Both the position numbers and the translations under genes were made by a program. Under the pieces are notes generated by a model. It was not told where the DNA came from, ran no database searches, and was given only the letters and a program-made list of their open reading frames with translations. 59,613 nt of DNA from Clostridia bacterium (GTDB lineage: Bacteria; Bacillota; Clostridia; Christensenellales; Aristaeellaceae). The stretch lies in NCBI GenBank assembly GCA_017396845.1, contig JAFQKQ010000091.1:1-59613 (forward strand), written 5' to 3'. How positions within the stretch are numbered: the first letter of the stretch is position 1; each line of letters begins with the position of its first letter. Below, piece after piece: positions 35,519 to 56,918 of this stretch.

Positions 35519-35547
35519 TTGACAGCCGGAGAAAATGATGGTAACAT
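35519..35547 (+). promoter_or_regulatory. Promoter for the isoleucine T-box transcript
   Basis: Perfect TTGACA (35519-35524), a 17-bp spacer and TAACAT (35542-35547), placing the start of transcription just before the T-box leader. Confidence 0.8.
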
Positions 35548-35555
35548 ACATTCCA

Positions 35556-35826
35556 TCAGCAATGACGGAGACGGTCGAAATCAGTCTTTTCAGAGAGCCG
35601 GCGGTTGGTGCAAGTCCGGTAAAGACGCGCTTTCGTATGACCTATCACTCCCGAGCCGGAAGGGTGAAACCTTGTAAGTAGCCGCTTCCCGCAGGCGCAG
35701 CGTTATTGGCGCAGGGCTTATAGGAGCCTGCTGAGCGGCGCAGAGAGCGCAATTTGAGTGGTACCGCGGGAATCATATAGAATGATTTTCGTCTCAAAGA
35801 AGAAATTCTTTGAGGCGTTTTTTATT
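35556..35826 (+). promoter_or_regulatory. T-box riboswitch, predicted isoleucine (ATC) specificity
   Basis: An about 270-nt leader with all T-box parts. Stem I carries CAGAGAGCCGGCGGTTGGTG (35590-35610 region). The specifier site CCT-ATC-A at 35641-35647 gives codon ATC (35644-35646), framed by GGAG/CTCC pairing. The T-box itself is AATTTGAGTGGTACCGCGG (35751-35769), with TGGT suited to a tRNA with discriminator A. A 12-bp terminator stem (35790-35801 with 35806-35817) is followed by T residues. Uncharged tRNA-Ile would favour the antiterminator and switch on the synthetase gene. The codon call rests on aligning this leader with the two others here. Confidence 0.9.
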
Positions 35827-35860
35827 TTATCAATAATAATTTGAGAAAAGGAGGGTTTTC

Positions 35861-38137
35861 ATGCAGACAGGTACAACGGCGTCCAATAAAATCTATGAGG
35901 TAGCTGCGCGAATTCGCGAGCTGCGTGAAATCACCGGCCTGACAAGAGAGGAAATGGCGCTTCGCACGGAAGTCAGCCTTGAAATGTACGTGATGTACGA
36001 GGAAGGTCAGCTGGATTTTCCGTTTTCGTTCATTCACAAGTGCGCTTTGGAGCTGGGCGTAGAAATCACCGATCTTATGGAAGGCAAGAGCGCGCATCTG
36101 ACCGGTTATACGATTACGCGCAAGGGACACGGCAGAATCACTGCCCGTGAGCCCGGTCTTGAAATCCGTTCGCTTGCGCCGCTTTTTAAGAAAAAAATCG
36201 CGGAGCCGTATTTTGTAAAGTACGAATATTCCAAGGAGCAGCAGAATCAGCCCATCCATTTAAGCCGCCACAGCGGTCAGGAATTTGATATGATCATGTC
36301 CGGCGCTTTAAAGGTGCAGATCGGCGATCATATCGAGGTTCTGCATGAGGGAGACAGCATTTACTACGATTCGTCCACGCCGCACGGCATGATCGCGGTG
36401 GAAGGCGAGGACTGCCTCTTCTGCGCGGTGGTACTGCCCGGAGAAGAGATTGAGGAAATGGAAGTGCGCGATACCATCGTCGCTGCCAAGCGCACGGAAA
36501 AGCGCATCCATTCCGCATTTGTTGAGGGAATCGAGGATGCAAACGGCTTAGTGACCGACTTGAAATTTACTGACGCCGAAAAATTCAACTTCGCCTTCGA
36601 TATCGTGGACGGGCTAGCGCAGAAAAAGCCCGACAAGCTGGCTATGGTGCACATCGACCGCAGTATGAACGAGCGCAAATTTACGTTCCGCGAGATATCC
36701 CGCGCATCCAGCCGCGCCGCGAACTACTTCAAATCGCTGGGCATCAAAAAGGGCGACAGAGTGATGCTGATATTAAGACGCCATTACCAGTTCTGGTTTG
36801 CCATCATCGCGCTTCATAAGCTTGGCGCTATCGTCATCCCCGCCACGAATCTCCTGGTGGAGCACGATCTTACCTACCGCTTTAATGCAGCCGGCGTTTC
36901 CGCGATCCTCTGCACGGGAACCGGAAATGTAGCTTCCGAAGTCGATAAAGCGCTTAAGGACAGCCCGACGCTCAAGCACAGAATCATTGTGGACGGCGAG
37001 CGCGAGGGCTGGAGAGACTTTGATGTGGAATCGCGCATGTTCTCAAGCACCTTTACGAGAACGGAGAACGCGCCCGCGGGCGATGATCCCATGCTGATGC
37101 TCTTTACCAGCGGAACCACAGGATATCCCAAGATTGCCACGCATTCCTATAAATATCCGCTGGGTCACTTTGCCACAGCGAAGTACTGGCACAATGTGAA
37201 TCCCGACGGCGTACACTTCACCATCTCCGATACCGGCTGGGGCAAGGCGCTTTGGGGCAAGCTCTACGGACAGTGGATGTGCGAGGCGGCGACGTTTGTA
37301 TACGACTTTGACAGGTTCGATGCATCGCAGATTCTGCCGATGTTCAAAAAGTACAACATCACCACCTTCTGCGCGCCGCCGACCATGTACCGCTTCATGA
37401 TCAAGGAAGATCTTTCGAAGTACGATCTTTCCTCCATCGAGCATGCGACCATCGCGGGCGAGGCTTTGAACCCCGAGGTATTCTATCAGTTCAGAAAGGC
37501 GACCGGCATATCGCTGATGGAAGGCTTTGGACAGACGGAAACCACGCTCACGGTCGGAAACCTGATCGGCATGCGCCCGAAGGTCGGCTCTATGGGCAAG
37601 CCTATCCCCGGATATGACGTGGATATCGTAGACCACAACGGAAACAGTGTGGGACAGGGCGAGACCGGCGAAATCGTCGTGCGCCTGAAGGACGGAAAGC
37701 GGCCCGTGGGCCTTACGCTCGGCTACTACAATAATGAAACCGGCGTTCCGGAAATCGATCTTTCCGACGGCATGTACCATACGGGCGATACCGCTTGGCG
37801 CGATGAGGACGGCTACTTCTGGTATGTCGGCCGTGTGGATGATCTGATCAAGTCCTCCGGCTATAGAATCGGGCCTTTCGAAATCGAGTCCGTCATCATG
37901 GAGCTTCCCTATGTGCTCGAGTGCGGCGTATCCGCTGCGCCCGACGAGATCCGCGGACAGGTGGTCAAGGCTTCAATCGTGCTTACCAAAGGCACCGAGC
38001 CCAGCGATCTTCTCAAAATGGAAATTCAGGAATACGTCAAGCATAAAACCGCGCCGTATAAATATCCGCGCATCGTAGTATTCAGAGAAGAGCTTCCCAA
38101 GACCATCAGCGGAAAGATTCAGAGGAACCTTTTGTAA
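35861..38137 (+). CDS. HTH(XRE)-cupin-acyl-CoA synthetase fusion (isoleucine T-box regulated)
   Basis: A 758-residue, three-part protein. Residues 12-75 form an XRE-type helix-turn-helix (RIRELREITGLTREEMAL). Residues 125-200 are a cupin (HSGQEFDMIMSGALKV and DSSTPHGMIA). Residues 240-758 are an AMP-forming acyl-CoA synthetase with the P-loop FTSGTTGYPK (415-424), GFGQTETT (555-562), YHTGDTAWRDEDGYFWY and the C-terminal lysine in SGKIQRN (K752). Synthetases of this family make acyl-CoA from a carboxylic acid, ATP and CoA. The T-box leader with codon ATC suggests 2-methylbutyrate, the isoleucine precursor acid. The HTH part may be a regulator of the same or another gene. AAAAGGAGGG precedes the start. 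Confidence 0.93.
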   Translation: MQTGTTASNKIYEVAARIRELREITGLTREEMALRTEVSLEMYVMYEEGQLDFPFSFIHKCALELGVEITDLMEGKSAHLTGYTITRKGHGRITAREPGLEIRSLAPLFKKKIAEPYFVKYEYSKEQQNQPIHLSRHSGQEFDMIMSGALKVQIGDHIEVLHEGDSIYYDSSTPHGMIAVEGEDCLFCAVVLPGEEIEEMEVRDTIVAAKRTEKRIHSAFVEGIEDANGLVTDLKFTDAEKFNFAFDIVDGLAQKKPDKLAMVHIDRSMNERKFTFREISRASSRAANYFKSLGIKKGDRVMLILRRHYQFWFAIIALHKLGAIVIPATNLLVEHDLTYRFNAAGVSAILCTGTGNVASEVDKALKDSPTLKHRIIVDGEREGWRDFDVESRMFSSTFTRTENAPAGDDPMLMLFTSGTTGYPKIATHSYKYPLGHFATAKYWHNVNPDGVHFTISDTGWGKALWGKLYGQWMCEAATFVYDFDRFDASQILPMFKKYNITTFCAPPTMYRFMIKEDLSKYDLSSIEHATIAGEALNPEVFYQFRKATGISLMEGFGQTETTLTVGNLIGMRPKVGSMGKPIPGYDVDIVDHNGNSVGQGETGEIVVRLKDGKRPVGLTLGYYNNETGVPEIDLSDGMYHTGDTAWRDEDGYFWYVGRVDDLIKSSGYRIGPFEIESVIMELPYVLECGVSAAPDEIRGQVVKASIVLTKGTEPSDLLKMEIQEYVKHKTAPYKYPRIVVFREELPKTISGKIQRNLL

Positions 38138-38226: not shown

Positions 38227-40371
38227 TTATACCGATTCAAATACAATCGCTTGCTCGATGGGGCAGGGGATGTAATGATCTCCCGCGGGATAGATTTCTC
38301 CGGTAAAAAAGTGCTTCCAGACGCCGTTTGGAAGGTATACCCTGCGCCCTTTTGCGCCTTCCTCCGTAATCGGTGCGACCAGGTATTTTCTTCCGAGCAT
38401 GAATTCGTCGTGCGTGACATATGCGCGTTCATCGTGCGGATAATCCAATATGAGATGCGCCATCATGGGGCGCTTGTTTTTTACACATGCCTGTGCTTCT
38501 TCCCAGAGATAGGGGCGAAGAGATTCGCGGATGCGGGCAAAGCGGCATGCGATATCGATGACGGAGGGATCATGGAGCTTTTCGGCAAGGTTCCACGGGC
38601 TTCTGTCGTTTATGTATTCGCTTGCGTTTGTTTCGAAGAACTGGCCGCTTCGGGGCTCTGCGTGCCACTGCATAACGGGACAAAAGCAGGCGAGGGCGGT
38701 TGCGCGAAGGTACAATTCGGCGGTCGGAATTTCGCCCGCAAAGCCGCCGATATCAAAACCGAAGAACAGGACGCCCGAGAGCGAAGCGGAAAGCCCCGCT
38801 GTCAGCTGGGCGCGAAGCTCCGGCCATGTGCTCAGCTGATCGCCTGCCCAGTGAATGGGAAGATTCTGCACGCCGCCGTAGCCTGCGCGGCTGAAGGTTA
38901 CGCCGTTTACATTCCTCTTTTTCATCCATTCGTTGTAGGCGGATATGTACTGATTCGGGAAAAGATTGTGCGCTTCTTTTCCGTTTGTGCCGTCCCAAAG
39001 CGTGAAATCGCTTCCGAACAGGAACTCTCCGCCGTCCGTTTTAAAGCCCTCAACGCCGGCTTCAAGCAGATGATCCCGCTTTTCAAACCACCATCTGCAC
39101 GCTTCGGGATTCGTAAAATCGATCAGGAAGCTGCCTTCAAACCATTTTTCGGGTATGACATAGGGCGTGTCGTCCGCATGCTTTATCAGATAGCCTTTTT
39201 GCATTGCTTCCGTCAGATCGCGCCGGACGGGCTCCGGATCCGGGCAGTCGGATACAGCTTTGATTACGGGAATCTGCCACAATACAAGGTGAAGGCCGGC
39301 GCTGCGGATGCGTTTTACCGTGTTTTTCGGATCGGGCCATTGATTGCTCCAGCGGTAAAACGTGCTTTCGTCGCTCCACGCTTCGAGCACCATGACGGAG
39401 GCGGGGCAATCGTGCTTTTTAAGCATTTCAAGCTGTTCATCTACATCCCTGTCATTTTTCCAGCCGTTGGCGCTGATCCACAGGCCGAACGTCCACTCGG
39501 GCGGAAGCGCGCATTCGCCGGACAGGGAAAGATAGGTTTTAAGCTGTATATCCGGCGTTCCCAGCAGAAAGTAATCTGTTTTTCCATGAAGCACGGACGA
39601 GGATATGCGAATCTCTTCTTTAAATTCCATCTTTACGTTTTCTGCGCCCGTATGATAGAAACCGAAGCCGCCGTCGGTTAGGAACATGGGCGAGGGAAGA
39701 TAGCTCCACGGACCCTGTCTGGTAAAGTGCTCTACTACCTGACCGCAGGATGCGTATCCGTTCTGATCTGCGTGATCGAATCTTTCGCCGGTTCCGAACA
39801 CATGCTTATGGTTTGCGCTGATTTGCATACTGCGCGTTTTCACGATTCCGCATGCGTCGATACCGAGATCCATGCTTTTGCAGCAAAGGACGGCTTTTCC
39901 GTTTTGGCAGATGGTGAAAAGCGCGCCGTTTCCAAAGGAAATATCGGCATATTCGGGATCGTTTTGAGGCGCGGAATCGGAAAACCGCATGGAAACAGAA
40001 GAGTCTTCTTTTTGGAATACGAGATATACGCCGGGAACGAGCATAATGAAGCTGTTTCCCGTTTTCAGCGGAGAAGAAACGCGCGTTTCCTTTAATATGT
40101 CCATGTTAAACCAGCGGCTTTTTTCGCCCGGGCAGATAAAGCGGTATTGAAAGGAACAGGCGGCGCTTTGCGGGGGAGCGGTGAAGCGCCAGCCCTTTTC
40201 CGTTTGCGTGCGCTTGACGGGAAAGGAAGCTCCGTCCGTTTCGAGCGTGGGAATGCCTGCGTCTGAAATACAGTCGATATGGATGGGGCTGCCTGTAAGG
40301 GCTTCAAGCGGCGTTCGCGCCGAGAAGGAGTTTTCAAACGGCACGACGCCTTCGGGTATATGTCTTAACAA
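38227..40371 (-). CDS. GH31 alpha-glycosidase (glucosidase/xylosidase type)
   Basis: A 714-residue cytoplasmic glycosidase. The GH31 nucleophile aspartate is in EGFKTDGGEF and the acid/base aspartate in IHWAGDQLSTW. Other signatures are GLWISANGWKNDRDVDEQL and FFGFDIGGFAG. Family members release alpha-linked glucose or xylose from oligosaccharides. The gene starts with TTG at 40371, nine bases after AAAGGAGGT. It is the last gene of the permease-permease-binding protein-GH31 unit under LacI control, so it should hydrolyse the sugar taken up by that transporter. Confidence 0.93.
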   Translation of the reverse strand: MLRHIPEGVVPFENSFSARTPLEALTGSPIHIDCISDAGIPTLETDGASFPVKRTQTEKGWRFTAPPQSAACSFQYRFICPGEKSRWFNMDILKETRVSSPLKTGNSFIMLVPGVYLVFQKEDSSVSMRFSDSAPQNDPEYADISFGNGALFTICQNGKAVLCCKSMDLGIDACGIVKTRSMQISANHKHVFGTGERFDHADQNGYASCGQVVEHFTRQGPWSYLPSPMFLTDGGFGFYHTGAENVKMEFKEEIRISSSVLHGKTDYFLLGTPDIQLKTYLSLSGECALPPEWTFGLWISANGWKNDRDVDEQLEMLKKHDCPASVMVLEAWSDESTFYRWSNQWPDPKNTVKRIRSAGLHLVLWQIPVIKAVSDCPDPEPVRRDLTEAMQKGYLIKHADDTPYVIPEKWFEGSFLIDFTNPEACRWWFEKRDHLLEAGVEGFKTDGGEFLFGSDFTLWDGTNGKEAHNLFPNQYISAYNEWMKKRNVNGVTFSRAGYGGVQNLPIHWAGDQLSTWPELRAQLTAGLSASLSGVLFFGFDIGGFAGEIPTAELYLRATALACFCPVMQWHAEPRSGQFFETNASEYINDRSPWNLAEKLHDPSVIDIACRFARIRESLRPYLWEEAQACVKNKRPMMAHLILDYPHDERAYVTHDEFMLGRKYLVAPITEEGAKGRRVYLPNGVWKHFFTGEIYPAGDHYIPCPIEQAIVFESV

Positions 40372-40398
40372 TCGGCTGCTTACCTCCTTTATCGGGAA

Positions 40399-40435
40399 GC
40401 GGCGGAGGCGTATGCGCTTGGCATGCCTCCGCCGC
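40399..40435. other. Intercistronic hairpin between binding protein and GH31 genes
   Basis: GCGGCGGAGGC (40399-40409) and GCCTCCGCCGC (40425-40435) form a perfect 11-bp GC-rich stem in the 77-bp gap. There is no T run on the minus strand, so it is more likely a 3'-end stabiliser or partial attenuator, which would keep the binding-protein message more abundant than the GH31 message. Confidence 0.6.
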
Positions 40436-40448
40436 GTATGCGTGTATT

Positions 40449-41984
40449 TTATTTCTGCGCTTCAAGATATCTTGCGTACGCGCCGAAGTAAATGTTGTTC
40501 ATGTCCTCAAGGCCCATTGCGTAGAGCGTGGATACATAATCGTCCCATTCCTCGTCAATGCCGCCTTCGGTTACCCATCTGGCGCGGGTGGTGTCGACAA
40601 ATGTGTCGATGTCCGCCTGCAGGAAGGAAAGTTCGTTGTATTCATCCGCCGTGTACTTAAGCTCGGGGAAGCACTCGCCTACGTACTGAGCGGTGTTTTC
40701 GTCCATCGCCACCTTAAGGCCGTCGCCCTGCGTGGGATCGAGGATGATCTTCTCGTCAAATGCGAGGGAGGAATACTTGGGGCCGAAATCGCGCAGGGAG
40801 CGGTCCCAGTACCAGCTGTCGGCGCTGATGCCCTCGGGCGGGTTATTGAGCGTATAGGTGCCGTCGGGATTTGCGGAGGTTACTTCGCCAAGGCCGCCCC
40901 AGAAGTTCTGAATGCTGGCTTCGCCGGTGTAGAACTTGTCTGCCCACTGAAGCACCAGTGCGGGATCCTCGCATGCGGTGGTGATGGAAAGCTGATTCGA
41001 CTTAATGGAGTACAGGCCGTTCTTGTCGCCCTGCTGATAGCGAACTCCGTCGGGACCTGCAATCGGCTCGATGACGGCATATTCATTCATCCAGCGGCGG
41101 AAGATTGCGTCATAGCTCCAGGCGTATGCAAAGCCTACGCGGGAAACCTCGGGATCATCGCACTTTGCGTCGCGGATTACCTGATCCTGCGTGAACAGCT
41201 CGTTGTCGATAACGCCCAGCTTATACAGCTTATGCGCCCACTTGAGGCCTTCCTTGTATTCGTCGCTGGTGTAGGCGTATTTGACCGTTCCGTCCTCTTC
41301 CACCAGGTATCTCTGTCCGTAAACGTCGGTCATGCCGAAGGGCGTTAAGAAATCCATGCCGAGTCCGATGCCGGTGAAGGGGATTTCATCATTCGGATCG
41401 CCGTTTCCGTTGGCGTCCTGCTCTTTAAAGGCGACGAGAACCGCTTCCAGCTCTTCGATGGTGGTGGGAACCGCAAGGTTCAGGTTTTCGAGCCACTTCA
41501 TATTGATGACGGGTACGTTGCAGGCGACGGGGCGCTTCGGCATGCGGCTGGGAAGCGAGTAGATATGGCCGTCTGCGGAGGTGGAGATCGCCTTGAGCGC
41601 GGGCATTTCTTCAAATGCGGCTACGAGGTTGGGCATGTTTTCCTCAATCAGATCCTCCAGGGGAAGGAAGTATTCCACGTTGTTGATGATGTCCGCTTCG
41701 CTGAAGGTCTGAAAGCCCAGAACGGCATCCGGGAGAACGCTTTCGCCGCCGGCGAGCAGGATCGGCTTCTGATCGCCCCAGTCATTGGAAGAGACGATCT
41801 GCCAGTCAACCTTGATGTTCATTTCCTCTTCCAGCTGTACGAGGAAGGGGTTGGAGACGAAGGAATCGCCCATGTCGCTCCAGCGCATGGTGAGTACGCT
41901 GAAGGTTTTGGGTTCCTCTGCAAAGGATGCAGAAAAAACCGGCAAAAGACACACGATGAGCAGCAGAGACAGAAGTTTTTTCAT
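40449..41984 (-). CDS. Extracellular solute-binding protein of a second sugar ABC transporter
   Basis: A 511-residue secreted binding protein. The signal peptide KKLLSLLLIVCLLPVFSASFAEE ends in an A-x-A-like site without a standard lipobox; the only cysteine, in LLIVC, does not fit the lipobox consensus well. The mature part has typical features of the oligosaccharide-binding family (VDWQIVSSNDWGDQKPILLAGG, FDEKIILDPTQGDG). The ATG at 41984 follows AAAGGAGGG. It is the third gene of the LacI-linked operon and supplies the substrate to the two permeases. Confidence 0.88.
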   Translation of the reverse strand: MKKLLSLLLIVCLLPVFSASFAEEPKTFSVLTMRWSDMGDSFVSNPFLVQLEEEMNIKVDWQIVSSNDWGDQKPILLAGGESVLPDAVLGFQTFSEADIINNVEYFLPLEDLIEENMPNLVAAFEEMPALKAISTSADGHIYSLPSRMPKRPVACNVPVINMKWLENLNLAVPTTIEELEAVLVAFKEQDANGNGDPNDEIPFTGIGLGMDFLTPFGMTDVYGQRYLVEEDGTVKYAYTSDEYKEGLKWAHKLYKLGVIDNELFTQDQVIRDAKCDDPEVSRVGFAYAWSYDAIFRRWMNEYAVIEPIAGPDGVRYQQGDKNGLYSIKSNQLSITTACEDPALVLQWADKFYTGEASIQNFWGGLGEVTSANPDGTYTLNNPPEGISADSWYWDRSLRDFGPKYSSLAFDEKIILDPTQGDGLKVAMDENTAQYVGECFPELKYTADEYNELSFLQADIDTFVDTTRARWVTEGGIDEEWDDYVSTLYAMGLEDMNNIYFGAYARYLEAQK

Positions 41985-42038
41985 GGTTTACCCTCCTTTA
42001 TTTTCAAGCGGACGCATCCGCCTGGATTCACGGAATCC

Positions 42039-42938
42039 TTATCCCTTTACCGCGCCGATCATGACGCCCTGATCAAAGTGCTTTTGAATAAAGGGATACA
42101 CGCACATAATGGGAACGGTGGTTACGATAATCATGGAATACCGTACGAGATTCGCTCTTCGCATGGCGATCATGGCGGCTTCGCCGGTTCCGAGGGCGGC
42201 GAAATTCTGGTTGGTGATGAGGATATTGCGCATGATCAGCTGAAGCGGATACAGATTCTCATCCCGTATGTAGATCAGCGCGTTGAAGTAGCTGTTCCAC
42301 TGCCCGACCGCCGTCCAGAGCGCGATTACGGATATGACGGCCTTTGAGAGCGGAAGCGCGATGGTGAAAAAATAGCGCAGGTTTCCGCAGCCGTCGATCT
42401 GCGCCGCATCGAATAGATCCGGCGGAAGGCTCGTTTCAAAGAACGTGCGGGCGACGATGATGTTGTAGGCGCTTACGGAAAAGGGAATGATGAGCACCCA
42501 GAAGGTGTTGTAAAAGCCGGCTTTTTGTACGGTAAGGAATATGGGAATGAGGCCGCCTGAAAAGAACATGGTGAATACATACAGCGACATCAGCGCTTTT
42601 CTTCCCCAGAGATCCTTTCTGGAAAGCGAATAGGCGGCGGAGATATTTACGGCAAGCCCAAAGAAGGTTCCGAGCAGGGTATACAGTATGGTATTTTTGT
42701 AGCCGATCCATACTTCCTTTTGCCTGAACAGCTCGTCGTAGCCGTCCAGCGTGAAGCCGACCGGCCAGAGCCACACATGCCCGCCTGCGACGGCGGAAGG
42801 ATCGGAAAAGGAGGCGATTACGATAAACCAGAGGGGATAGAGTATCAGTATCAGAAAAAGAATGCATATGACGTACAGTATTACGGAGAATATGAGGTCG
42901 CTTCCCTTGGTTCGGATGCGGCTGTTGTTTTTCGGCAT
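42039..42938 (-). CDS. Sugar ABC transporter permease, LplC/MalG type
   Basis: A 299-residue inner-membrane protein with six expected helices, including VILYVICILFLILILYPLWF, then the ASFSDPSAV segment. The EAA-loop region DLFDAAQIDGCGNLRYFFTIALPL contacts the ATPase. The sequence ends with FDQGVMIGAVKG, as in the other LplC-type protein of this window. I prefer the ATG at 42938, 8 nt after AGGAGG, over the in-frame GTG at 42947, which overlaps that site. Second gene of the operon. Confidence 0.92.
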   Translation of the reverse strand: MPKNNSRIRTKGSDLIFSVILYVICILFLILILYPLWFIVIASFSDPSAVAGGHVWLWPVGFTLDGYDELFRQKEVWIGYKNTILYTLLGTFFGLAVNISAAYSLSRKDLWGRKALMSLYVFTMFFSGGLIPIFLTVQKAGFYNTFWVLIIPFSVSAYNIIVARTFFETSLPPDLFDAAQIDGCGNLRYFFTIALPLSKAVISVIALWTAVGQWNSYFNALIYIRDENLYPLQLIMRNILITNQNFAALGTGEAAMIAMRRANLVRYSMIIVTTVPIMCVYPFIQKHFDQGVMIGAVKG

Positions 42939-42950
42939 ATGATTCACCTC

Positions 42951-43874: not shown

Positions 43875-43897
43875 AGTATCACTCTTTCATTTAAAGG

Positions 43898-43910
43898 TTA
43901 AGCGCTAAAC
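43898..43910. promoter_or_regulatory. LacI-type operator 1 (TTAAGCGCTAAAC)
   Basis: A near-palindrome with core TTAAGCGCTAAAC, identical to the site at 44063. It sits just downstream of the inferred transcription start of the permease operon, where a bound repressor would block initiation or elongation. Core AGCGCT with flanking TT/AA is the common LacI-family shape. Confidence 0.75.
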
Positions 43911-43917
43911 TAACAGT

Positions 43918-44075: not shown

Positions 44076-44084
44076 ATAGCGCAC

Positions 44085-44114: not shown

Positions 44115-44148
44115 CACAGAACAGTCAGAAGCGAAAAGGGGCGAAGAA

Positions 44149-48576: not shown

Positions 48577-49974
48577 ATGAAAAATATCAGACTGATCGAA
48601 ACGACACTTTCCCACGACGCGCACATGAGTTTTAAAGAGAAGCTGGAAAGCGCCAGAATTCTGGACAGTATTTCGGTAGACGTTATTGAAACCTGCGCAA
48701 TCGGCAACGACAAGGCAGACGATATTCTTGTAAAAACCATTTCTCAGCAGACGGTGACGAGCATCGTATCCTGCCCGGTGTATTCCGCATCGGATATTGA
48801 CCGCGCATGGGCGGCGATCAGCGGCGCAAAGAATAAGCGCTTGAATGTGAAAATGCCCGTATCCGTGGTTCAGATGGAATACATGGGCAAGAAAAAGCCC
48901 GCCGCAATGCTGGACGCAATTCAAGAGGCGGTTCAGAAGGCGAAGGAAAAGGGCTGCGAAGTGGAATTTACGGCGCTGGACGCGACGCGCGCGGAAGCAG
49001 GTTTCCTGATTCAGGCGATTGACCGCGCTGTAAAGGCGGGCGCGGACGTGATTACTGTGTCCGACGAAGCGGGCGAAATGCTGCCGGACGAGTTCGGCGG
49101 GTTTGTAAAGAGCCTGTATGTGGGCGTTCCCGAGCTTTACGAAAAGACGGTGGGCGTATCCTGCGCCAATCACCTTTCGATGGCGGCGGCATGCGCGTTT
49201 GAAGCGGTTCGCGCAGGCGCCAGGCAGATCTGCGTATGCGCGGTTGAAAACGGGCTTCCCGGACTTGAAACCATGGTGCGCCTGATAAACGCCAGAGGCG
49301 AAACCTGCGGCGCAAAATGCGATGTGGACGTTACGGCGCTGAAAAGAGCGGTCGGACAGATTGCGCGCTACTGCCGCGCGGAGGTACGCCAGACGTTAAA
49401 CGGCGCGGAGGCGGCGTCTCCCGCCGCGCCCCGTCAGGAACTTTCAAAGTCCTCCGATATAAACGAGGTCGCCCGCGCAGCGAGTCTGCTGGGCTATCAG
49501 CTCTCCGACGAGGACATGGCCCGCGTATTTGAAGCGTTTACCGCGTTCGTTCAGAAAAAGCCGGTCGGAAGCCGGGAGCTGGATGCGATTATCGCAAATG
49601 TGGCGCTTCAGGTGCCGCCGACCTACCGCCTTTCGAGCTATGTGGTAAACAGCGGAAATATCATCAGCGCGACTGCGCACGTGGTTCTTGACAAAAACGG
49701 GGAGAGCGTGCAGGGTCTTTCCACCGGCGACGGCCCGATTGACGCGGCGTTTATGGCGCTGGAGAGAATCGTTGGACATCATTACGAGCTGGACGATTTC
49801 CAGATTCAGTCCGTTACCGGTGGACGCGAGGCGATGGGCGAAGCGCTTGTGAAGCTCCGCGACGGCGGGAAGCTTTATTCCGGACGCGGTATATCCACCG
49901 ATATTATCGGCGCGTCTATCCGCGCGTACCTGAATGCCCTCAATAAAATCGTTTACAGGGAGACAAATATATGA
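48577..49974 (+). CDS. LeuA-like protein with intact regulatory domain but degenerate catalytic motifs
   Basis: A 465-residue relative of 2-isopropylmalate synthase. Residues 1-270 form the TIM-barrel part, and 345-460 are a clear leucine-binding LeuA dimerisation domain (STGDGPIDAAFMALERI, GISTDIIGASIRAYLNALNK). The catalytic DRE-TIM signature TLRDGEQ is replaced by TTLSHDAHMSF (9-19), the HxHND metal motif by SCANHLSMA (195-203), and NGxGERAGN by NGLPGLETM. It is therefore unlikely to make isopropylmalate. It might sense leucine and control partner enzymes, or have another activity. First gene of the Leu T-box operon; its stop overlaps the next start. Confidence 0.88.
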   Translation: MKNIRLIETTLSHDAHMSFKEKLESARILDSISVDVIETCAIGNDKADDILVKTISQQTVTSIVSCPVYSASDIDRAWAAISGAKNKRLNVKMPVSVVQMEYMGKKKPAAMLDAIQEAVQKAKEKGCEVEFTALDATRAEAGFLIQAIDRAVKAGADVITVSDEAGEMLPDEFGGFVKSLYVGVPELYEKTVGVSCANHLSMAAACAFEAVRAGARQICVCAVENGLPGLETMVRLINARGETCGAKCDVDVTALKRAVGQIARYCRAEVRQTLNGAEAASPAAPRQELSKSSDINEVARAASLLGYQLSDEDMARVFEAFTAFVQKKPVGSRELDAIIANVALQVPPTYRLSSYVVNSGNIISATAHVVLDKNGESVQGLSTGDGPIDAAFMALERIVGHHYELDDFQIQSVTGGREAMGEALVKLRDGGKLYSGRGISTDIIGASIRAYLNALNKIVYRETNI

Positions 49975-52484
49975 AGCTTTCTGTTTCTACCTACGGATGG
50001 TCAAATTTCTCGTTTGAGGATTATGCGTCTCTGGCGAAGGAAATGCATATAGAAGGCGTTGAAATACACGATATAACGGAAAGCCGCTTTTCCGGCGTCG
50101 GCGCGCCCTTTCAGAAGGGCGAAATCGAACACACAGTCCGCGGCCTGACCGCGCAGGGGCTTTCGATTACCTGCCTTGATGCGAGAAGCAACCCGGCAGA
50201 TAAAAATCAGGCGGAAAAGAGCGGCAAGGAAATCCTTTTCCTGATTGATATGGCGAAAAAGGTGAACGCGTCGTTCGTGAGGATCCGCGCGCTTGAAACC
50301 GGGCTCAGTGAAGCGGAAGAGGATGAGAACGTAAAAAGCGTTGTAAGGAGCGTGCTGAACGAGGCCGAAAAGGCGAACGTAACGATACTGATTGAAACCG
50401 CCGGCATCTATGCGGATACCTCGCGCCTTGCAGACATATTAAATGATTTCGCCTGCGATTCCCTTCAGGCGCTTTGGGATGTGCATCATCCTTATCGTTT
50501 CCGCGGTGAAAAGCCTGAAAAGACGATCACTAATTTGGGCGCATATGTAAAGCATGTGCATCTGAAGGATTCCGTGGTCGGCGCGTGCGGGCCTCAGTAT
50601 TGTCTCCTGGGCGAAGGCACGCTTCCCATGAGGGAAATATTTCTGGCGCTTCGTTCCGTGAGCTACGACGGGTTCTATTGCCTGGAATGGGATCCCGACT
50701 GGATGAAGGAGATCAGCGACCCCAGCGTTATTCTGGCGCATTTCTCCTCCTTCGTTCACGGCTTTGAGCCGGAATCCAGCTGGAAGAGCCACCTGTATAT
50801 GAATAAGCAGGGAAACGGCAAGTATGTCTGGAAGCATGATCAGCTGATCGACGCCACCTTTCCGCAGGTGCTCGACAGGATGGTGCAGGAATTCCCGGAT
50901 CAGTTGTGCTTTAAATATACCACCCTCGATTACACGCGCACCTATTCTCAGTTCAGAGACGACGTGGACGCATGCGCAAGGGCGCTGATTTCCTTGGGCG
51001 TAAAGCCCAATTCGCATGTAACCATCTGGGCGACCAATGTGCCCGCATGGTACATTTCCTTCTGGGCGACCACGAAAATCGGTGCGACGCTGGTTACTAT
51101 GAATACGGCCTATAAAATTGCGGAGGCGGAATACCTTTTGAGGCAGTCCGACACGCATACGCTGATCATGGTGGACGGCTACAGAGACTCGAATTATGTA
51201 GAAATTATCAAGACGCTCTGTCCGGAGCTTAAGGATACGAAGCCCGGCGAGAGCCTGCATGCAAAGAAGCTTCCGTTCTTAAGAAACGTAGTGACCGTGG
51301 GCTTTTCCATGGACGGTTGTCTTACATGGGATGAGATGATGGCAAGAGCGCCCATGGTGCCGGTGGAAGAGGTATACAGACGCGCCGCCGAGATCAAGGG
51401 CGACGACGTAGCCAACATGCAGTACACCTCCGGAACGACGGGCTTCCCCAAGGGCGTTATGCTTACGCACAGGGGCGTAGTCAATAACGGCAAATGCATC
51501 GGCGATAGAATGGATCTTTCCACCGCCGACCGCATGATGATTCAGGTGCCCATGTTCCATTGCTTCGGCATGGTGCTTTCGATGACCGCCAGCATGACGC
51601 ACGGAAGCACAATGTGTCCGCTGCCGTATTTTTCGCCCAAGCCTGCGCTGGACTGCGTGAGCCGCGAAAAAATCACCTGCTTTAACGGCGTTCCCACGAT
51701 GTTTATCGCAATGCTTTCGCATCCCGACTTTGAAAAGGTGGATTTCAGCTATATGCGCACCGGCATCATGGCGGGATCCAACTGCCCCGAAACCGTTATG
51801 CGGGAAGCTGCGGACCGAATGAATATGACCGGCATCGTGTCCGTATACGGACAGACCGAGGCTGCGCCGGGCTGTACGATGTCCAGGTGCTACGAGGACT
51901 CTTTAACCGTTCGAACCACCACCGTCGGCTGTGCGCTTCCCGAAATTGAGTGCCGCATTGTGGATCCCGCAACGGGGCGCGAGCTTCCCGACGGCGAACA
52001 GGGCGAATTCGTCGCCCGCGGTTACAATATTATGAAGGGCTATTACAAAATGCCTGCCGCCACCGCCGAGGCGATCGACAAGGACGGCTGGCTGCACACG
52101 GGAGACCTGTGCATAAGGGATAAGGACGGCAACTACCGCGTAACCGGAAGGCTTAAGGACATGATCATCAGAGGCGGCGAAAACATCTACCCGCGCGAAA
52201 TCGAGGAATTCCTGATTACGCACGACAAGGTGTCCGATGTTCAGGTGATCGGCGTTCCCGACAAGCAGTACGGCGAAGAAATCATGGCCTGCGTCATCGT
52301 CAGGGAAGGCGAGGCGATGACGGAAGAGGACGTGAAGGCGTTTGTCCGAAAGAATATGGCGCGGCATAAGGTGCCCAAGTACGTGTGGTTCATGGATAAA
52401 TTTATAATGAACGACGCAGGAAAAATACAAAAATATAAAATGAGAGAAAAGGCTGTGGAGCTGTTTGGGCTTCAGGGGAAATAA
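49971..52484 (+). CDS. TIM-barrel/acyl-CoA synthetase fusion protein
   Basis: An 837-residue fusion. Residues 1-262 are a sugar phosphate isomerase/epimerase-type barrel (KLSVSTYGWSNFSFEDYASL, ILIETAGIYADTSRL, LWDVHHPYRF, YVKHVHLKDSVV, FYCLEWDPDW). Residues 290-837 are an AMP-forming acyl-CoA synthetase with P-loop YTSGTTGFPKG (485-495), YGQTEAAP (626-633), HTGDLCIRDKDGNYR and the terminal lysine in AGKIQK. The barrel keeps metal-type E and H residues, so it may be active. The synthetase is more FadD-like than the two HTH-cupin paralogues. Placed after the leucine T-box, it most likely activates isovalerate. The start overlaps the previous stop (ATGA). Confidence 0.9.
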   Translation: MKLSVSTYGWSNFSFEDYASLAKEMHIEGVEIHDITESRFSGVGAPFQKGEIEHTVRGLTAQGLSITCLDARSNPADKNQAEKSGKEILFLIDMAKKVNASFVRIRALETGLSEAEEDENVKSVVRSVLNEAEKANVTILIETAGIYADTSRLADILNDFACDSLQALWDVHHPYRFRGEKPEKTITNLGAYVKHVHLKDSVVGACGPQYCLLGEGTLPMREIFLALRSVSYDGFYCLEWDPDWMKEISDPSVILAHFSSFVHGFEPESSWKSHLYMNKQGNGKYVWKHDQLIDATFPQVLDRMVQEFPDQLCFKYTTLDYTRTYSQFRDDVDACARALISLGVKPNSHVTIWATNVPAWYISFWATTKIGATLVTMNTAYKIAEAEYLLRQSDTHTLIMVDGYRDSNYVEIIKTLCPELKDTKPGESLHAKKLPFLRNVVTVGFSMDGCLTWDEMMARAPMVPVEEVYRRAAEIKGDDVANMQYTSGTTGFPKGVMLTHRGVVNNGKCIGDRMDLSTADRMMIQVPMFHCFGMVLSMTASMTHGSTMCPLPYFSPKPALDCVSREKITCFNGVPTMFIAMLSHPDFEKVDFSYMRTGIMAGSNCPETVMREAADRMNMTGIVSVYGQTEAAPGCTMSRCYEDSLTVRTTTVGCALPEIECRIVDPATGRELPDGEQGEFVARGYNIMKGYYKMPAATAEAIDKDGWLHTGDLCIRDKDGNYRVTGRLKDMIIRGGENIYPREIEEFLITHDKVSDVQVIGVPDKQYGEEIMACVIVREGEAMTEEDVKAFVRKNMARHKVPKYVWFMDKFIMNDAGKIQKYKMREKAVELFGLQGK

Positions 52485-52537: not shown

Positions 52538-53602
52538 ATGGATATTCGCGTTGAACTGAATGCAAATCCCGGTGTCAAGCCTCAGGATGCTTCGAAGCTC
52601 GGATTCGGAAAAATATTCACCGATCATATGTTTATGATGGAGTATGACCGCGAAAACGGCTGGCACGACGCGCGGATTGTTCCCTACGGAAATATTTGCG
52701 TGTCTCCCGCATCCACCGTTCTGCACTACGGCGCTGAAATTTTTGAGGGCATGAAGGCCTACCGCCGTCCGGACGGAGAAATTCAGCTGTTCAGACCCCT
52801 TGATAATTTTGACCGCATGAATCAGTCCGCAGACAGGCTCTGCCTTCCCCAGATCGATCCAGATTTCTGCCTGAAGGCGCTTAAGAAGCTGATTGATATC
52901 GACAGAGATTGGGTTCCTTCCGCCGAGGGCGCGAGCCTCTACATTCGCCCGTTCCTGTTCGGAAACGATCCGTTCCTGGGCGTGCACACGGTCAATAACG
53001 CCGTGTTCGTCATCATTCTTTCGCCCTCCGGCTCCTATTATAAGGAAGGCGTAAACCCCGTCAGAATCATGATCGAAACCGAGGACGTTCGCGCGGTTCG
53101 CGGCGGCACCGGCTATGCCAAGTGTGGCGGCAACTATGCGGCTTCCATGCGTGCGGGCGAGAAGGCCGAAAAGAAGGGTTTTGCCCAGGTGCTGTGGCTT
53201 GACGGCGTAGAGCGCAAGTATGTGGAAGAAGTAGGATCCATGAACGTTATGTTCAAAATTAACGGCGTAGTTGTAACGCCGAAGCTCACCGGCTCCGTGC
53301 TTCCCGGCATCACCAGAAGAAGCTGCATCGCGCTTCTCAAGGAGTGGGGCGTACCGGTTGAGGAGAGACTGGTTTCCGTTGAAGAGCTGGCGGAAGCGGT
53401 AAAGACTGGCGCGCTGGAAGAGGCGTTCGGCTGCGGTACGGCGGCGGTCATTTCTCCCATCGGCGAGCTGTCCGTGGACGATGTTCCCTATGTCGTAAAC
53501 GGCGGAAATATCGGCGAAGTCACCCAGAAGCTGTATGACGAATTGACCGGCATCCAGTGGGGCAAGAAGGCGGATCCCTTTGGCTGGACGGAAGCTATAT
53601 AA
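52538..53602 (+). CDS. ilvE: Branched-chain amino acid aminotransferase
   Basis: A 354-residue PLP enzyme (fold type IV) that interconverts Leu, Ile and Val with their 2-oxoacids, using glutamate/2-oxoglutarate. Landmarks: LHYGAEIFEGMKAYRRPDG, FDRMNQSADRLCLP, YIRPFLFGNDPFLGV, the catalytic lysine in GGTGYAKCGGNYA (K195), and VEEVGSMNVMF. It belongs to the larger BCAT type resembling the eukaryotic enzyme. ATG has GGAGG upstream. In the proposed pathway it is the last step, amination of the 2-oxoacids made by the Vor enzyme. Its TAATG junction with the next gene suggests coupling. Confidence 0.96.
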   Translation: MDIRVELNANPGVKPQDASKLGFGKIFTDHMFMMEYDRENGWHDARIVPYGNICVSPASTVLHYGAEIFEGMKAYRRPDGEIQLFRPLDNFDRMNQSADRLCLPQIDPDFCLKALKKLIDIDRDWVPSAEGASLYIRPFLFGNDPFLGVHTVNNAVFVIILSPSGSYYKEGVNPVRIMIETEDVRAVRGGTGYAKCGGNYAASMRAGEKAEKKGFAQVLWLDGVERKYVEEVGSMNVMFKINGVVVTPKLTGSVLPGITRRSCIALLKEWGVPVEERLVSVEELAEAVKTGALEEAFGCGTAAVISPIGELSVDDVPYVVNGGNIGEVTQKLYDELTGIQWGKKADPFGWTEAI

Positions 53603-54270
53603 TGAAGAGAGTTACGCTGTTTGCCGGGCATTACGGAAGCGGCAAGACGAATTTAGCGGTAAATTACGCGCTCAGGCTCGCTGAAATGGGAAAAAAGACG
53701 ATGATCGCCGATCTTGACATTGTAAATCCCTATTTCAGAACGCGGGACAGCGAGAAGGCGCTTGCGGATGCGGGCGTGCGCATCGTGGTATCGCCCTTTG
53801 CCAACAGCAATGTGGACGTGCCCGCGCTTCCGCAGGAGATGTATGCGGTCACGGACGACAAAAGCTATTTTGCCGTAGTGGACGTAGGCGGCGACGACCG
53901 CGGCGCGCTTGCGCTTGGCAGACTTGCTCCGGCGCTGATGAAAGAAGACGATTATGAAATGCTGTTTGTCATGAATTTCTATCGTCCGCTCACAACAAAT
54001 GCCGAAAGCGCCGTTGCCGTTATGCGCGAGGTGGAAAACGCTTCCCATATGAAATTTACCGGCATTATCAATAACTCAAATCTCGGTCAGCAAACGACGG
54101 GCGAGGATATCATACGTACGCATGCGCGGGCGATGGAGGTTTCCCGCCTTACCGGTCTTGAGCTTGCGGCAACCTGCGTGCGCGAGGATCTGATAGGGGA
54201 AGTGTCCCCCAAAATCGAAAACCTGATTCCCATACGGCTGCACTTCCGCGACGAATGGGCAATCTTCTGA
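53602..54270 (+). CDS. MinD/ParA-like P-loop ATPase
   Basis: A 222-residue cytoplasmic ATPase. The deviant Walker A motif is FAGHYGSGKTNLAVN; KKTMIADLDIVNPYFRTRDSEKAL and YFAVVDVGGDDRGA supply the other nucleotide-binding aspartates; MNFYRPLT follows. The start is shared with the ilvE stop codon (TAATG). Clostridial 2-oxoacid:ferredoxin oxidoreductase genes often have such an ATPase next to them; its role is not established, and an iron-sulfur or complex assembly role is only a guess. Next gene is 18 bp downstream. Confidence 0.88.
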   Translation: MKRVTLFAGHYGSGKTNLAVNYALRLAEMGKKTMIADLDIVNPYFRTRDSEKALADAGVRIVVSPFANSNVDVPALPQEMYAVTDDKSYFAVVDVGGDDRGALALGRLAPALMKEDDYEMLFVMNFYRPLTTNAESAVAVMREVENASHMKFTGIINNSNLGQQTTGEDIIRTHARAMEVSRLTGLELAATCVREDLIGEVSPKIENLIPIRLHFRDEWAIF

Positions 54271-54288: not shown

Positions 54289-54495
54289 ATGGCAAAGGTA
54301 ACGTTCCGGGAGGAAAGATGCAAGGGCTGCGGCCTGTGTGTCGGCGCCTGCCCGAAAAAAATCGTGAAGCTGGATGAAGAAAAGCTGAACGCGCTGGGAC
54401 ATCATCCCGCGAAGGTGGACGATATGGATAAGTGCATCGGCTGCGCGTTCTGTGCGACGATGTGCCCCGATTGCGTAATTACGGTGGAAAGGTAA
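54289..54495 (+). CDS. 2x[4Fe-4S] ferredoxin-type subunit (Vor/Kor delta)
   Basis: A 68-residue protein with two classical cysteine sets: CKGCGLCVGACPKK and CIGCAFCATMCPDC. It is the small electron-transfer subunit of four-subunit 2-oxoacid:ferredoxin oxidoreductases, passing electrons between ferredoxin and the TPP subunit. Full length. It is followed 12 bp later by the alpha subunit gene, and its start has GGGAGG. Confidence 0.94.
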   Translation: MAKVTFREERCKGCGLCVGACPKKIVKLDEEKLNALGHHPAKVDDMDKCIGCAFCATMCPDCVITVER

Positions 54496-54507: not shown

Positions 54508-55575
54508 ATGGCTGATAAAGTGCTTATGAAGGGCAACGAAGCCCTGGCAGAGGCCGCCATCATGGCAGGCTGCCGCCATTACTTCGGCTATCCCATTACG
54601 CCGCAGACCGAGGTCGCGGCATATCTGGCCAAGCGCATGCCGCAGATCGGCGGAACCTTTCTGCAGGCGGAGAGCGAAGTCGCGGCGATCAATATGGTAA
54701 TTGGCGTTGCTTCTGCGGGCAAGCGCGTAATGACGTCCTCGTCAAGCCCCGGAATCTCGTTAAAGAGCGAGGGCCTCAGCTATCTGGCGGGCTGCGATCT
54801 TCCGGCGCTGGTTGTAAACGTACAGCGCGGCGGGCCGGGACTGGGCGGCATTCAGCCCAGCCAGTCCGACTATTTCCAGGCGACCAGAGGCGCGGGACAC
54901 GGCGATTTCCACATGCTGGTTCTGGCTCCCGCATCCGTTCAGGAAATGGCGAGTTTGGTATTCAAGGGCTTTGACCTTGCGGACAAATACCGCATGACTA
55001 CCATGATCCTTGCAGACGGCACCATGGGACAGATGATGGAGCCGGTATCTCTGGATATGGGCAGCGTAAATGAATACGACAAGAGCTGGGCGGTTACGGG
55101 TACGAAGTGCGAAAGAAAGCACAACATCATCAATTCCCTCTCCCTGCTTCCCGAGGAACTGGAACAGTGGAATATCCGCCGCTATGATATGTACAAAAAG
55201 ATCGAAGAAAGAGAGGTTATGTATGATGAATACATGACCGAAGATGCGGATATTATCGTTGTGGCGTTCGGTGTTGCGGCGCGCGTTGCGAGAAACGCAA
55301 TCGTTGCGGCGAGAGAAAAGGGCATCAAAGCTGGTCTCGTTCGCCCGATCACCCTTTGGCCATTCCCGAAGGAAATTCTGAAACAGCGCGCGAAGAACGC
55401 CAAGGCGTTTGTAAGCGTAGAGCTTTCCACGGGTCAGATGATCGAGGATATCGAGCTTGCCATTCGCTGCACGCGTCCGGTGCTTTTGGCCTCCCGCGTC
55501 GGCGGCATGATTCCCACGCCCGAAGAGGTGCTTGAAAAGATTGAAGAAGCTCAGAAGATCGGAGGCGAGGCGTAA
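54508..55575 (+). CDS. vorB: 2-oxoacid:ferredoxin oxidoreductase alpha subunit (VorB type)
   Basis: A 355-residue protein of the 2-oxoisovalerate/2-oxoacid ferredoxin oxidoreductase alpha family. Landmarks: KGNEALAEAAIMAGCRHYFGYPITPQTEVAAYL, the substrate-site segment FLQAESEVAAINMVIGVASAG, TSSSSPGISLKSEGLSYLAG, VVNVQRGGPGLGGIQPSQ and ATRGAGHGD. It oxidises 2-oxoacids to acyl-CoA plus CO2, or runs in reverse to carboxylate acyl-CoA with reduced ferredoxin. The synthetase and aminotransferase neighbours and the T-box argue for the reverse, biosynthetic direction and for branched substrates. It abuts the beta gene with no gap. Confidence 0.95.
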   Translation: MADKVLMKGNEALAEAAIMAGCRHYFGYPITPQTEVAAYLAKRMPQIGGTFLQAESEVAAINMVIGVASAGKRVMTSSSSPGISLKSEGLSYLAGCDLPALVVNVQRGGPGLGGIQPSQSDYFQATRGAGHGDFHMLVLAPASVQEMASLVFKGFDLADKYRMTTMILADGTMGQMMEPVSLDMGSVNEYDKSWAVTGTKCERKHNIINSLSLLPEELEQWNIRRYDMYKKIEEREVMYDEYMTEDADIIVVAFGVAARVARNAIVAAREKGIKAGLVRPITLWPFPKEILKQRAKNAKAFVSVELSTGQMIEDIELAIRCTRPVLLASRVGGMIPTPEEVLEKIEEAQKIGGEA

Positions 55576-56328
55576 ATGATCGTATTTGAAAAGCCGAAAG
55601 CGCTGGCGGATGTGAAGATGCACTACTGCCCGGGCTGCACCCACGGCATTATCCACAGGCTCGTCGCCGAGGCGATTGATGAACTGGGCATTGAAGGACG
55701 CGTAATCGGTGTTGCGCCCGTCGGCTGCTCGGTATTTGCCTACAACTACTTTAACTGCGATATGGTTCAGGCGGCGCACGGCCGTGCTCCGGCGGTTGCC
55801 ACGGGCGTAAAGCGCGCAGATCCCGAAAATATCGTATTCACCTATCAGGGCGACGGCGATTTGGCCGCCATCGGTACCGCTGAAACCGTGCACAGCGCGG
55901 CAAGAGGCGAAAACATCACCATTATCTTTGTAAATAACGCCATTTACGGCATGACCGGCGGACAGATGGCTCCGACCACGCTGCCCGGACAGGTTACGCA
56001 GACTTCTCCCTACGGCCGTCAGGTGGAATCGGTCGGCTTCCCGATCAAGGTTTGCGAGCTTCTGAAAAATGTAGACGGCGCAGCGTATCTGGAGCGCGTA
56101 GCGGTAAACGATGTAAAGAACGTCAAAAACGCTAAGCGCGCCATCAAGAAGGCGTTTGAGTATCAGGTTCAGGGTAAGGGCTTCTCGCTGATTGAAGTGC
56201 TTTCCACCTGCCCCACCAACTGGGGACTTACGCCGGACAAGGCGCTCAAGTGGCTGGAAGAGAACATGATGCCCTATTATCCGCTGGGTGTATACAAGGA
56301 TAAGTACGCAGAGGAGGCCGGCAAATGA
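55576..56328 (+). CDS. 2-oxoacid:ferredoxin oxidoreductase beta subunit (TPP-binding)
   Basis: A 250-residue thiamine-diphosphate subunit. CPGCTHG is near the N-terminus, the TPP/Mg motif is YQGDGDLAAIG (90-100) with NNAIYGMTGGQMAPT (120-134), and HGRAPAVATGVK precedes it. It carries the catalytic centre where the C-C bond is made or broken. It starts directly after the alpha stop codon and overlaps the gamma start by 4 bases. Confidence 0.95.
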   Translation: MIVFEKPKALADVKMHYCPGCTHGIIHRLVAEAIDELGIEGRVIGVAPVGCSVFAYNYFNCDMVQAAHGRAPAVATGVKRADPENIVFTYQGDGDLAAIGTAETVHSAARGENITIIFVNNAIYGMTGGQMAPTTLPGQVTQTSPYGRQVESVGFPIKVCELLKNVDGAAYLERVAVNDVKNVKNAKRAIKKAFEYQVQGKGFSLIEVLSTCPTNWGLTPDKALKWLEENMMPYYPLGVYKDKYAEEAGK

Positions 56329-56858
56329 AGACGACGAACATACTGATTTCCGGCTTCGGCGGACAGGGCGTGCTGTTTACCGGAAAATTCATTGCCTATG
56401 AGGGACTTTTGGAGGGAAAGGAAGTCACATGGCTTCCGTCCTACGGCCCCGAGATGCGCGGCGGAACCGCCAGCTGCTCGGTTATCATTTCGGATTCGCC
56501 CATCGGAAGTCCGCTGGTTCCCAAGCCCGACATACTGATCGCTATGAATCTCCCGTCTCTTGACAAGTTTGAGGACGCGGTAGTTCCCGGCGGCATGATC
56601 TTCTACGATTCGTCCCTGATCGACCGCGATGTAAAGCGCACGGACGTCAAGGCGTTTCCCGTTCCCGCTACGAAAATTGCGGGCGAAGAGGGAATGACGA
56701 CGTTGGCAAACATGATCGTAATGGGAAAGATGCTGAAGGAAAGCGCCCTTTTCCCGATGGATGCCATCGATAAGACGATTGCCAAGGTGGTATCTGCCAA
56801 GCGGCAGAACCTCATTGAACTGAATAAAAAAGCCATTTCCATCGGAAGTGAAATGTAA
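56325..56858 (+). CDS. 2-oxoacid:ferredoxin oxidoreductase gamma subunit
   Basis: A 177-residue subunit of the PFOR-gamma fold that helps bind CoA. Recognisable features are [23 protein letters not shown], the [22 protein letters not shown] segment and [16 protein letters not shown]. It is the last gene of the Leu T-box operon; its stop lies inside a large hairpin terminator. Confidence 0.94.
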
Positions 56859-56918
56859 ACGAAAATTGTTCGCCATAGAATTATCACGATTCTGTGGCGA
56901 TTAGTTTACATTTTTGGT
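56851..56918 (+). terminator. Long hairpin terminator of the Vor operon
   Basis: AAATGTAAAC (56851-56860) pairs with GTTTACATTT (56905-56914); an inner stem TCGCCATAGAAT/ATTCTGTGGCGA adds about 12 bp. A T run closes it. The gamma stop codon is within the left arm. Confidence 0.8.

Follow-up and report, generated by a model that had tools for sequence, protein, structure and literature searches.

T-box leaders (Rfam family RF00230) are best known from ilv-leu operons and aminoacyl-tRNA synthetase genes, and the synthesis of amino acids from branched acids by rumen microbes has been reported since the 1960s by Allison and co-workers (cited in PMC7356843). A 2020 paper citing this classical work gives isovalerate, isobutyrate and 2-methylbutyrate as the rumen precursors of leucine, valine and isoleucine, respectively (PMC7356843), and branched acids have been tried as feed additives. 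Two characterised acyl-CoA synthetases use such acids: MbcS of Staphylococcus aureus uses 2-methylbutyrate and isobutyrate with an apparent KM below 10 µM, and isovalerate very poorly (PMC10026030), and MacsMa of Methanosarcina acetivorans prefers 2-methylbutyrate (PMC10455477). We describe a locus on contig JAFQKQ010000091.1 of a Clostridia bacterium (Aristaeellaceae, assembly GCA_017396845.1), analysed over its 59,613 nucleotides (the window), in which three T-box leaders with isoleucine, valine and leucine specifier codons precede genes for three acyl-CoA synthetases, a branched-chain aminotransferase (IlvE) and a 2-oxoacid:ferredoxin oxidoreductase (Vor).

These leaders resemble described T-boxes in their Stem I with a specifier, their UGGU T-box, their terminator and their cognate genes, and differ in standing ahead of acyl-CoA synthetases and a 2-oxoacid:ferredoxin oxidoreductase. 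A 2008 survey of T-boxes (PMC2494555) uses none of the words acyl-CoA, oxidoreductase and ilvE in its main text, and no link of T-boxes to these genes was found by title or abstract in searches of open-licence papers. The habitat, and the chemistry proposed below, are those of the rumen carboxylation described by Allison and co-workers (cited in PMC7356843); the classical work deals with acids and amino acids, whereas a gene set with branch-specific control is proposed here. The chemistry is classical, and T-box control of it was not found in the literature searched. The synthetases are related to MbcS and MacsMa, which share 2-methylbutyrate as a substrate (and isobutyrate in the case of MbcS), but differ in their XRE-cupin fusion, the T-box upstream, their clustering with Vor and IlvE, and a score below the MbcS equivalog cut-off. 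Finally, a LeuA-like protein of the leucine operon is built like 2-isopropylmalate synthase (LeuA) from a barrel and a LeuA_dimer domain and has the motifs of its regulatory domain; it differs in that the metal-binding residues are lost in 29 of 29 sequences and no LeuD-sized partner gene was found.

We propose that the locus specifies a demand-controlled salvage route from branched acids to isoleucine, valine and leucine under T-box control, and put the probability of this reading at roughly 0.85. Uncharged tRNA-Ile, tRNA-Val or tRNA-Leu would allow read-through of its own leader, and hence synthesis of a branch-specific AMP-forming synthetase. The Ile synthetase would activate 2-methylbutyrate, the Val synthetase isobutyrate and the Leu synthetase isovalerate to the CoA ester. 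A single Vor complex, common to the three branches, would carboxylate the ester with reduced ferredoxin and CO2, and IlvE would transaminate the resulting 2-oxo acid to the amino acid. A separate accessory module, likely for sensing product or substrate, would go with each synthetase: an XRE-cupin part in the Ile and Val enzymes, and a TIM barrel with a neighbouring LeuA-derived pseudoenzyme in the Leu branch. In this scheme the tRNA response, the substrates, the direction of flux and the sensing are what we infer. The characterised relatives MbcS and MacsMa use the acids that the first-pass annotation of this DNA had led us to expect (PMC10026030, PMC10455477), and the substrate range of MbcS agrees with one synthetase subfamily serving, as proposed, isoleucine and valine and a different one serving leucine.

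A covariance-model search with RF00230 found all three leaders, on the forward strand like every feature described below: the Ile leader at 35553–35799 (73.0 bits, E 2.8e-14), the Val leader at 45547–45800 (71.1 bits, E 8.2e-14) and the Leu leader at 48270–48510 (101.2 bits, E 1.5e-21). These E-values exclude a chance match for any of the three. The specifiers taken from the model alignment are AUC (35644–35646), GUC (45634–45636) and CUC (48359–48361), each cognate to the branch of its gene, the branch itself being assigned from the recurring match described below and the substrates of relatives. The T-box UGGU is present in all three leaders. The discriminator base of tRNA-Ile, tRNA-Val and tRNA-Leu is A73, which this UGGU suits. 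Promoter-like sites precede the Ile leader (TTGACA-17-TAACAT, 35519–35547), the Val leader (TTGACA-17-TATCAT, 45505–45533) and the Leu leader (TTGACA-17-TATAGT, 48226–48254), and each leader also has a hairpin resembling a terminator, with a run of T (35790–35817, 45791–45816 and 48501–48528, respectively); both kinds of element are consensus matches. The first-pass annotation had claimed three leaders with specifiers ATC, GTC and CTC, each with promoter and terminator, and behind each an AMP-forming synthetase gene (the second gene in the Leu case), together with ilvE and four oxidoreductase subunits; all of these are confirmed here.

To follow the match between specifier and gene across relatives, we used 111 sources, comprising 80 loci from named genomes (the 80 best among at least 522 relatives), 30 loci of relatives, and the window. 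We collected the Ile- and Val-type matches scoring 550 bits or more, together with every LeuA-like match, and named each by its best match among the window proteins. A T-box core was sought upstream of each gene, and specifiers were called by a purpose-built, strict parser. Confident specifiers were Val for 58 of 59 Val-type genes (the other being His, in L072), Ile for 48 of 49 Ile-type genes (the other being Thr, in L067) and Leu for 22 of 22 LeuA-like genes; these counts include the window and some overlaps (L023 and L120, of equal length, are apparently the same contig), the distinct called sequences numbering 57, 47 and 22. At L072 and at the Ile-type gene of L067 a cognate codon (GTA or ATC) can be read where the specifier is expected, yet both were counted as misses. 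The agreement of codon and gene vanishes when the triplet is shifted by one or two bases. Specifier tracks gene family in many genomes, which supports the earlier suggestion of a dedicated synthetase for each amino acid.

No confident specifier was obtained for 28 of the 87 Val-type genes, 24 of the 73 Ile-type genes and 11 of the 33 LeuA-like genes. All genes with a T-box core and no cognate confident call, L072 and the Ile-type gene of L067 included, were read again more laxly, and a candidate codon cognate to the gene was then seen for 12 of 18 genes of the Val type, 8 of 9 of the Ile type and 4 of 6 LeuA-like ones. At L097 nothing but GGT was seen, and there was no candidate in seven cases, among them L038, where GTA before CAGC is seen by eye, and the Val-type gene of L067, where another scan gives GTC. 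Applied to 11 T-boxes of aminoacyl-tRNA synthetase genes (named by eye) in the genome of the window, the parser made four confident calls, all right, and left seven uncalled; at a transporter T-box (L001) it called ACA confidently, where TAC is also possible.

The same match is seen on a FastTree tree of 157 synthetases, on which the specifier changes only twice; 300 shuffles of the 106 specifier labels on this tree gave a mean of 35.1 changes and a minimum of 27. One clade of 83 tips (support 98) holds 57 of the 58 Val-labelled tips and none labelled Ile. By label, 78 of the 80 loci belong to Bacillota and one to Spirochaetota, one being unassigned, and many are titled as samples from the gut of ruminants or other animals. 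One spirochaete-labelled contig, from a Sphaerochaetaceae metagenome-assembled genome of horse feces (L085), carries a Val-type synthetase with a GTC T-box, which may reflect transfer between phyla or a binning error.

The presence of a different tRNA sensor on each branch bears on the function of the synthetases. They might, like S. aureus MbcS, mainly prime branched-chain membrane fatty acids, with the T-boxes merely reporting amino acid supply. We regard this as unlikely: lipid priming would not need three tRNA-specific leaders, Vor and often IlvE are encoded in the same clusters, and the classical enzymes IlvC and IlvD went undetected in the genus.

The search for these enzymes covered three genomes of the genus, that of the window (G000, 73% complete) and two genus-mates (80% and 93%), and detected neither IlvC nor IlvD; nor was a LeuD-sized reading frame found in G000–G002, where only an aconitase-sized one is present. 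Co-occurrence was examined by Fisher tests in 40 genomes including that of the window, a synthetase being any protein that matches the Ile synthetase at E <= 1e-100, with or without the fused domains. At least two MbcS-like synthetases were present in 1 of 12 IlvC-positive and 22 of 28 IlvC-negative genomes (p 5e-5), and VorB in 3 of 12 and 22 of 28, respectively (p 0.003). VorB was found in 22 of 23 genomes with at least two synthetase matches and in 3 of 17 without (p 4e-7). Since the relatives are not independent, these p values should be taken as indicative only. Across the 40 genomes IlvC tends to give way to MbcS-like synthetases and VorB. This tendency argues against the enzymes running catabolically, from amino acids to branched acids, a direction that would suit Vor-type oxidoreductases in so far as these can run both ways and are known chiefly for oxidising 2-oxoacids. 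T-boxes, however, switch genes on when their amino acid runs short, and AMP-forming synthetases consume ATP when running towards activation; we consider the catabolic direction the least probable of the alternatives discussed here. Two genomes (G007 and G010) combine IlvC and IlvD with the Leu module, and have no Ile/Val-synthetase match (E <= 1e-100) and no LeuD-sized frame. Such a mixture of classical genes and Leu module supports independent branches.

The first-pass annotation had also placed in the Leu operon a Vor-IlvE module that it took to be shared by all branches. The module is indeed there, and Vor lies within the Leu operon in the genus-mates G002 (L023) and G001 (L144) as well, but this placement is not the usual one. 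In neighbourhood counts, which cover VorB, VorA and VorC (VorD was not scored), VorBAC follows the Val gene in 41 of the 62 fetched Val-gene loci with room downstream, and the Ile gene precedes the Val gene in 41 of 68 fetched loci with room. In the window the units do not all adjoin: GH31 glycosidase, ABC-transporter and LacI-type regulator genes (38227–45162) separate the Ile gene from the Val gene. As the Ile gene lies close upstream of the Val gene in those 41 of 68 loci, this stretch looks like an insertion or rearrangement.

Several observations weigh against the salvage reading. Only the Leu leader exceeds the Rfam gathering score of 93 bits, the Ile and Val leaders lying below it. The best family of both the Ile and the Val synthetase is MbcS (NF047394), with 433.5 and 422.6 bits against a cut-off of 850, so that neither is a member. 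A T-box core was not found upstream of 9 of 87 Val-type, 13 of 73 Ile-type and 4 of 33 LeuA-like genes. At L069 the weakly parsed leader of the Val-type gene (9650–10010) has CTG (Leu) at the specifier place, the one clear mismatch seen, and the Leu-type gene of that locus has no T-box core upstream. In G007 and G010 no VorB was found at E <= 1e-80 despite the Leu module, and another oxidoreductase, for example the IOR found there, would have to act. Finally, with the genome of the window 73% complete, the absences rest on the three genus genomes (73, 80 and 93%); of the branched-chain biosynthetic genes whose absence the first-pass annotation proposed to check, IlvC, IlvD and a LeuD-sized frame went undetected, and ilvB, leuB and leuC were not searched.

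The Ile-branch synthetase (35861–38137, 758 residues, MbcS-like) consists of HTH_19, Cupin_2 and AMP-binding domains according to profile searches, and the Val-branch synthetase (45848–48166, 772 residues) of HTH, cupin and AMP-binding domains; the two are 66% identical. The Val gene is taken to start at 45848, with AGGAGG just upstream, a longer reading frame starting at 45758 falling within the T-box. In five fetched relatives (L126, L128, L129, L132 and L138) the HTH-cupin gene is separate and stands beside an unfused synthetase gene. When alignment columns were ranked by how well they separate Ile from Val types, 28 of the best 30 fell in or just after the XRE-cupin part, a concentration that suggests a branch-specific ligand. 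The region around the recognition helix (residues 36–49) has a net charge that averages -3.4 in Val-type (n=83) and -3.3 in Ile-type (n=58) proteins. With so acidic a region DNA binding by the HTH part is doubtful, and a sensor role for the XRE-cupin part is preferred.

The column of the catalytic domain that best tells the two types apart is residue 476 (Val numbering): all 58 Val-labelled synthetases have Ala there, and 47 of the 48 Ile-labelled ones have Gly, the single exception being Met in an unfused protein. Residue 476 adjoins Lys477 and is near Trp480, which align with Lys256 and Trp259 of MacsMa (PDB 3ETC), the best solved-structure match of the Val enzyme; MacsMa has Gly at the position aligned to 476. 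Lys256 and Trp259 we take to be acyl-pocket residues, which would place 476 beside the presumed pocket. That the smaller acid should go with the larger residue is sterically plausible. Of the 74 tips outside the Val clade, 65 have Gly476; of the nine that do not, eight are short frames of 547–612 residues and seven lack a called specifier. The Ala/Gly rule is therefore not general for the wider family.

One synthetase behind a GTC leader (L032) clusters with its own Ile paralog on the tree. Over residues 266–768 the two are 82–96% identical per 50-residue window, a pattern that suggests gene conversion. Over residues 48–147, by contrast, the L032 protein is nearer to Val-type proteins (mean identity 0.71 and 0.66) than to its paralog (0.46 and 0.54). 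The 53 differences from the paralog in the catalytic part include Ala476 and Met479. Over residues 468–517 identity is 0.90 to the best Val protein and 0.88 to the paralog; with closeness so nearly equal, a stretch spared by conversion and a later change are equally likely. On either account, the branch of an enzyme seems to be set by its regulatory domain, its leader and a few catalytic positions.

In the Leu operon the first gene, left unnamed by the first-pass annotation, encodes the LeuA-like protein (48577–49974, 465 residues). Profile searches and alignment show a degenerate HMGL barrel and a well-kept LeuA_dimer domain, and we predict a pseudoenzyme. The second gene encodes the Leu-branch synthetase (49971–52484, 837 residues), with an N-terminal AP_endonuc_2 TIM barrel and an AMP-binding part (PRK12583-like, below the cut-off). 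Downstream follow IlvE (52538–53602; NF009897, 481.2 bits against a cut-off of 307), a CbiA/ParA-like P-loop ATPase (53602–54270, below the Pfam cut-off), and the oxidoreductase: VorD, a two-cluster ferredoxin subunit (54289–54495), VorB, the alpha subunit (54508–55575; NF005507, PRK07119, 528.7 bits against 399), VorA, the thiamine-pyrophosphate-binding beta subunit (55576–56328), and VorC, the gamma subunit (56325–56858), the last two below the NCBIfam cut-offs. The P-loop ATPase gene, here between ilvE and vorD, is a neighbour of vor genes in many loci. Downstream of vorC two neighbouring genes (56894–58060 and 58104–59228) encode proteins each with a C-terminal DUF6273 domain.

The LeuA-like gene adjoins that of the TIM-barrel synthetase in 29 of 31 cases in the 80 fetched loci. 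Near-full-length LeuA-like matches above 330 bits were found in 13 of 60 genomes, with the TIM-barrel synthetase following it in each. The best families of the window protein are 2-isopropylmalate synthases, with scores below the cut-offs (PRK00915.1-3, 278.7 against 532; TIGR00973, 250.4 against 598.7), and its LeuA_dimer regulatory domain scores 114.7 bits against a cut-off of 24.9. In isopropylmalate synthase the Asp of TLRDGEQ and both His of HCHND bind metal. We aligned the 29 of 33 LeuA-like matches longer than 380 residues, including the window protein, with two canonical LeuA sequences of relatives. The Asp and both His are kept in none of the 29 and the Arg in four, in an alignment that is gappy around the first motif; the motifs are lost too in the 12 of the 13 proteins from the genome search that entered the alignment. 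The regulatory-domain motifs GDGPIDAAF and GxGxSTDI are near-invariant. Identity over all pairs averages 0.39 for the barrel and 0.66 for the regulatory domain, and the barrel has the higher value in 0 of 406 pairs. In canonical LeuA, chosen for intact motifs, the averages are 0.59 and 0.46, the barrel being higher in 9 of 10 pairs; this comparison rests on five distinct sequences, since L139/L166 and L142/L164 carry the same genes.

These results bear on whether the LeuA-like protein could be an active isopropylmalate synthase, leucine being made by elongation of isobutyrate-derived 2-oxoisovalerate and the operon synthetase having another substrate. The Leu-specific leader, the best-matching families and the fact that this is the sole LeuA homolog found in G000 at E <= 1e-15 would fit such a role. 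The loss of the metal ligands throughout the set, the collapse of barrel conservation relative to the dimer domain and the failure to find a LeuD-sized gene in G000–G002 do not, and make it very improbable, more so than fatty-acid priming. The LeuA-like protein is probably a leucine-sensing pseudoenzyme. It may bind leucine, and perhaps the TIM domain, and would act on the partner synthetase. In the xylose-isomerase-like TIM domain plausible metal ligands, at supposed metal positions, are present in the window protein and replaced in many of 25 sequences, and the AMP-binding motifs inspected hardly vary among the same 25.

The overall interpretation offered by the first-pass annotation is supported, but it overlooked the extra domains fused to all three synthetases and the pseudoenzyme character of the LeuA-like protein, which together suggest a second, post-translational layer of control. 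We tentatively propose, at slightly less than even odds, two feedback layers per branch, the T-box responding to tRNA charging and a branch-specific sensor module acting on the synthetase protein. In the Ile and Val enzymes the XRE-cupin part would have turned from DNA binding to ligand sensing. In the Leu branch the LeuA-derived pseudoenzyme would bind leucine through its retained allosteric domain and inhibit the isovaleryl-CoA synthetase that carries the TIM barrel. The allosteric switch of the classical pathway would have survived the loss of that pathway and been transferred to the enzyme that opens its replacement.

The genome of the window has 18 T-box matches, and 11 of the 15 outside the window precede aminoacyl-tRNA-synthetase-like frames (named by eye). 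The genes behind the further T-boxes described here were likewise named by eye. One T-box (G000:C30:2804-3065; L005, L143) is followed by a phenylacetate-CoA-ligase-like gene and then a gene for an ACT-domain-like protein. Its specifier is TCA (Ser) by the Rfam alignment and TTC (Phe) in another frame, and TTC is favoured because the UGGU T-box suits A73. A leader was parsed ahead of the ligase-like gene in 2 of 30 fetched loci, both called TCA (Ser), two others having a T-box core only and 26 no core; prephenate dehydratase is present. We therefore dropped phenylalanine as a general fourth branch. Another T-box (G000:C48:10547-10788; L016), with a possible TGG (Trp) specifier, precedes the gene of a 456-residue TrpB2-like protein that perhaps makes tryptophan from salvaged indole. 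Two further T-boxes, possibly for Tyr, precede a transporter-like gene (G000:C43, L001) and an aminotransferase-like gene (G000:C89, L007).

For gut Clostridia, the locus proposes both a gene set for making branched-chain amino acids from branched acids and its control. In uncultured genomes the T-box codon may suggest the substrate of each synthetase. The LeuA-derived pseudoenzyme, if confirmed, would be a case of an allosteric domain that has outlived its own pathway and been reused.

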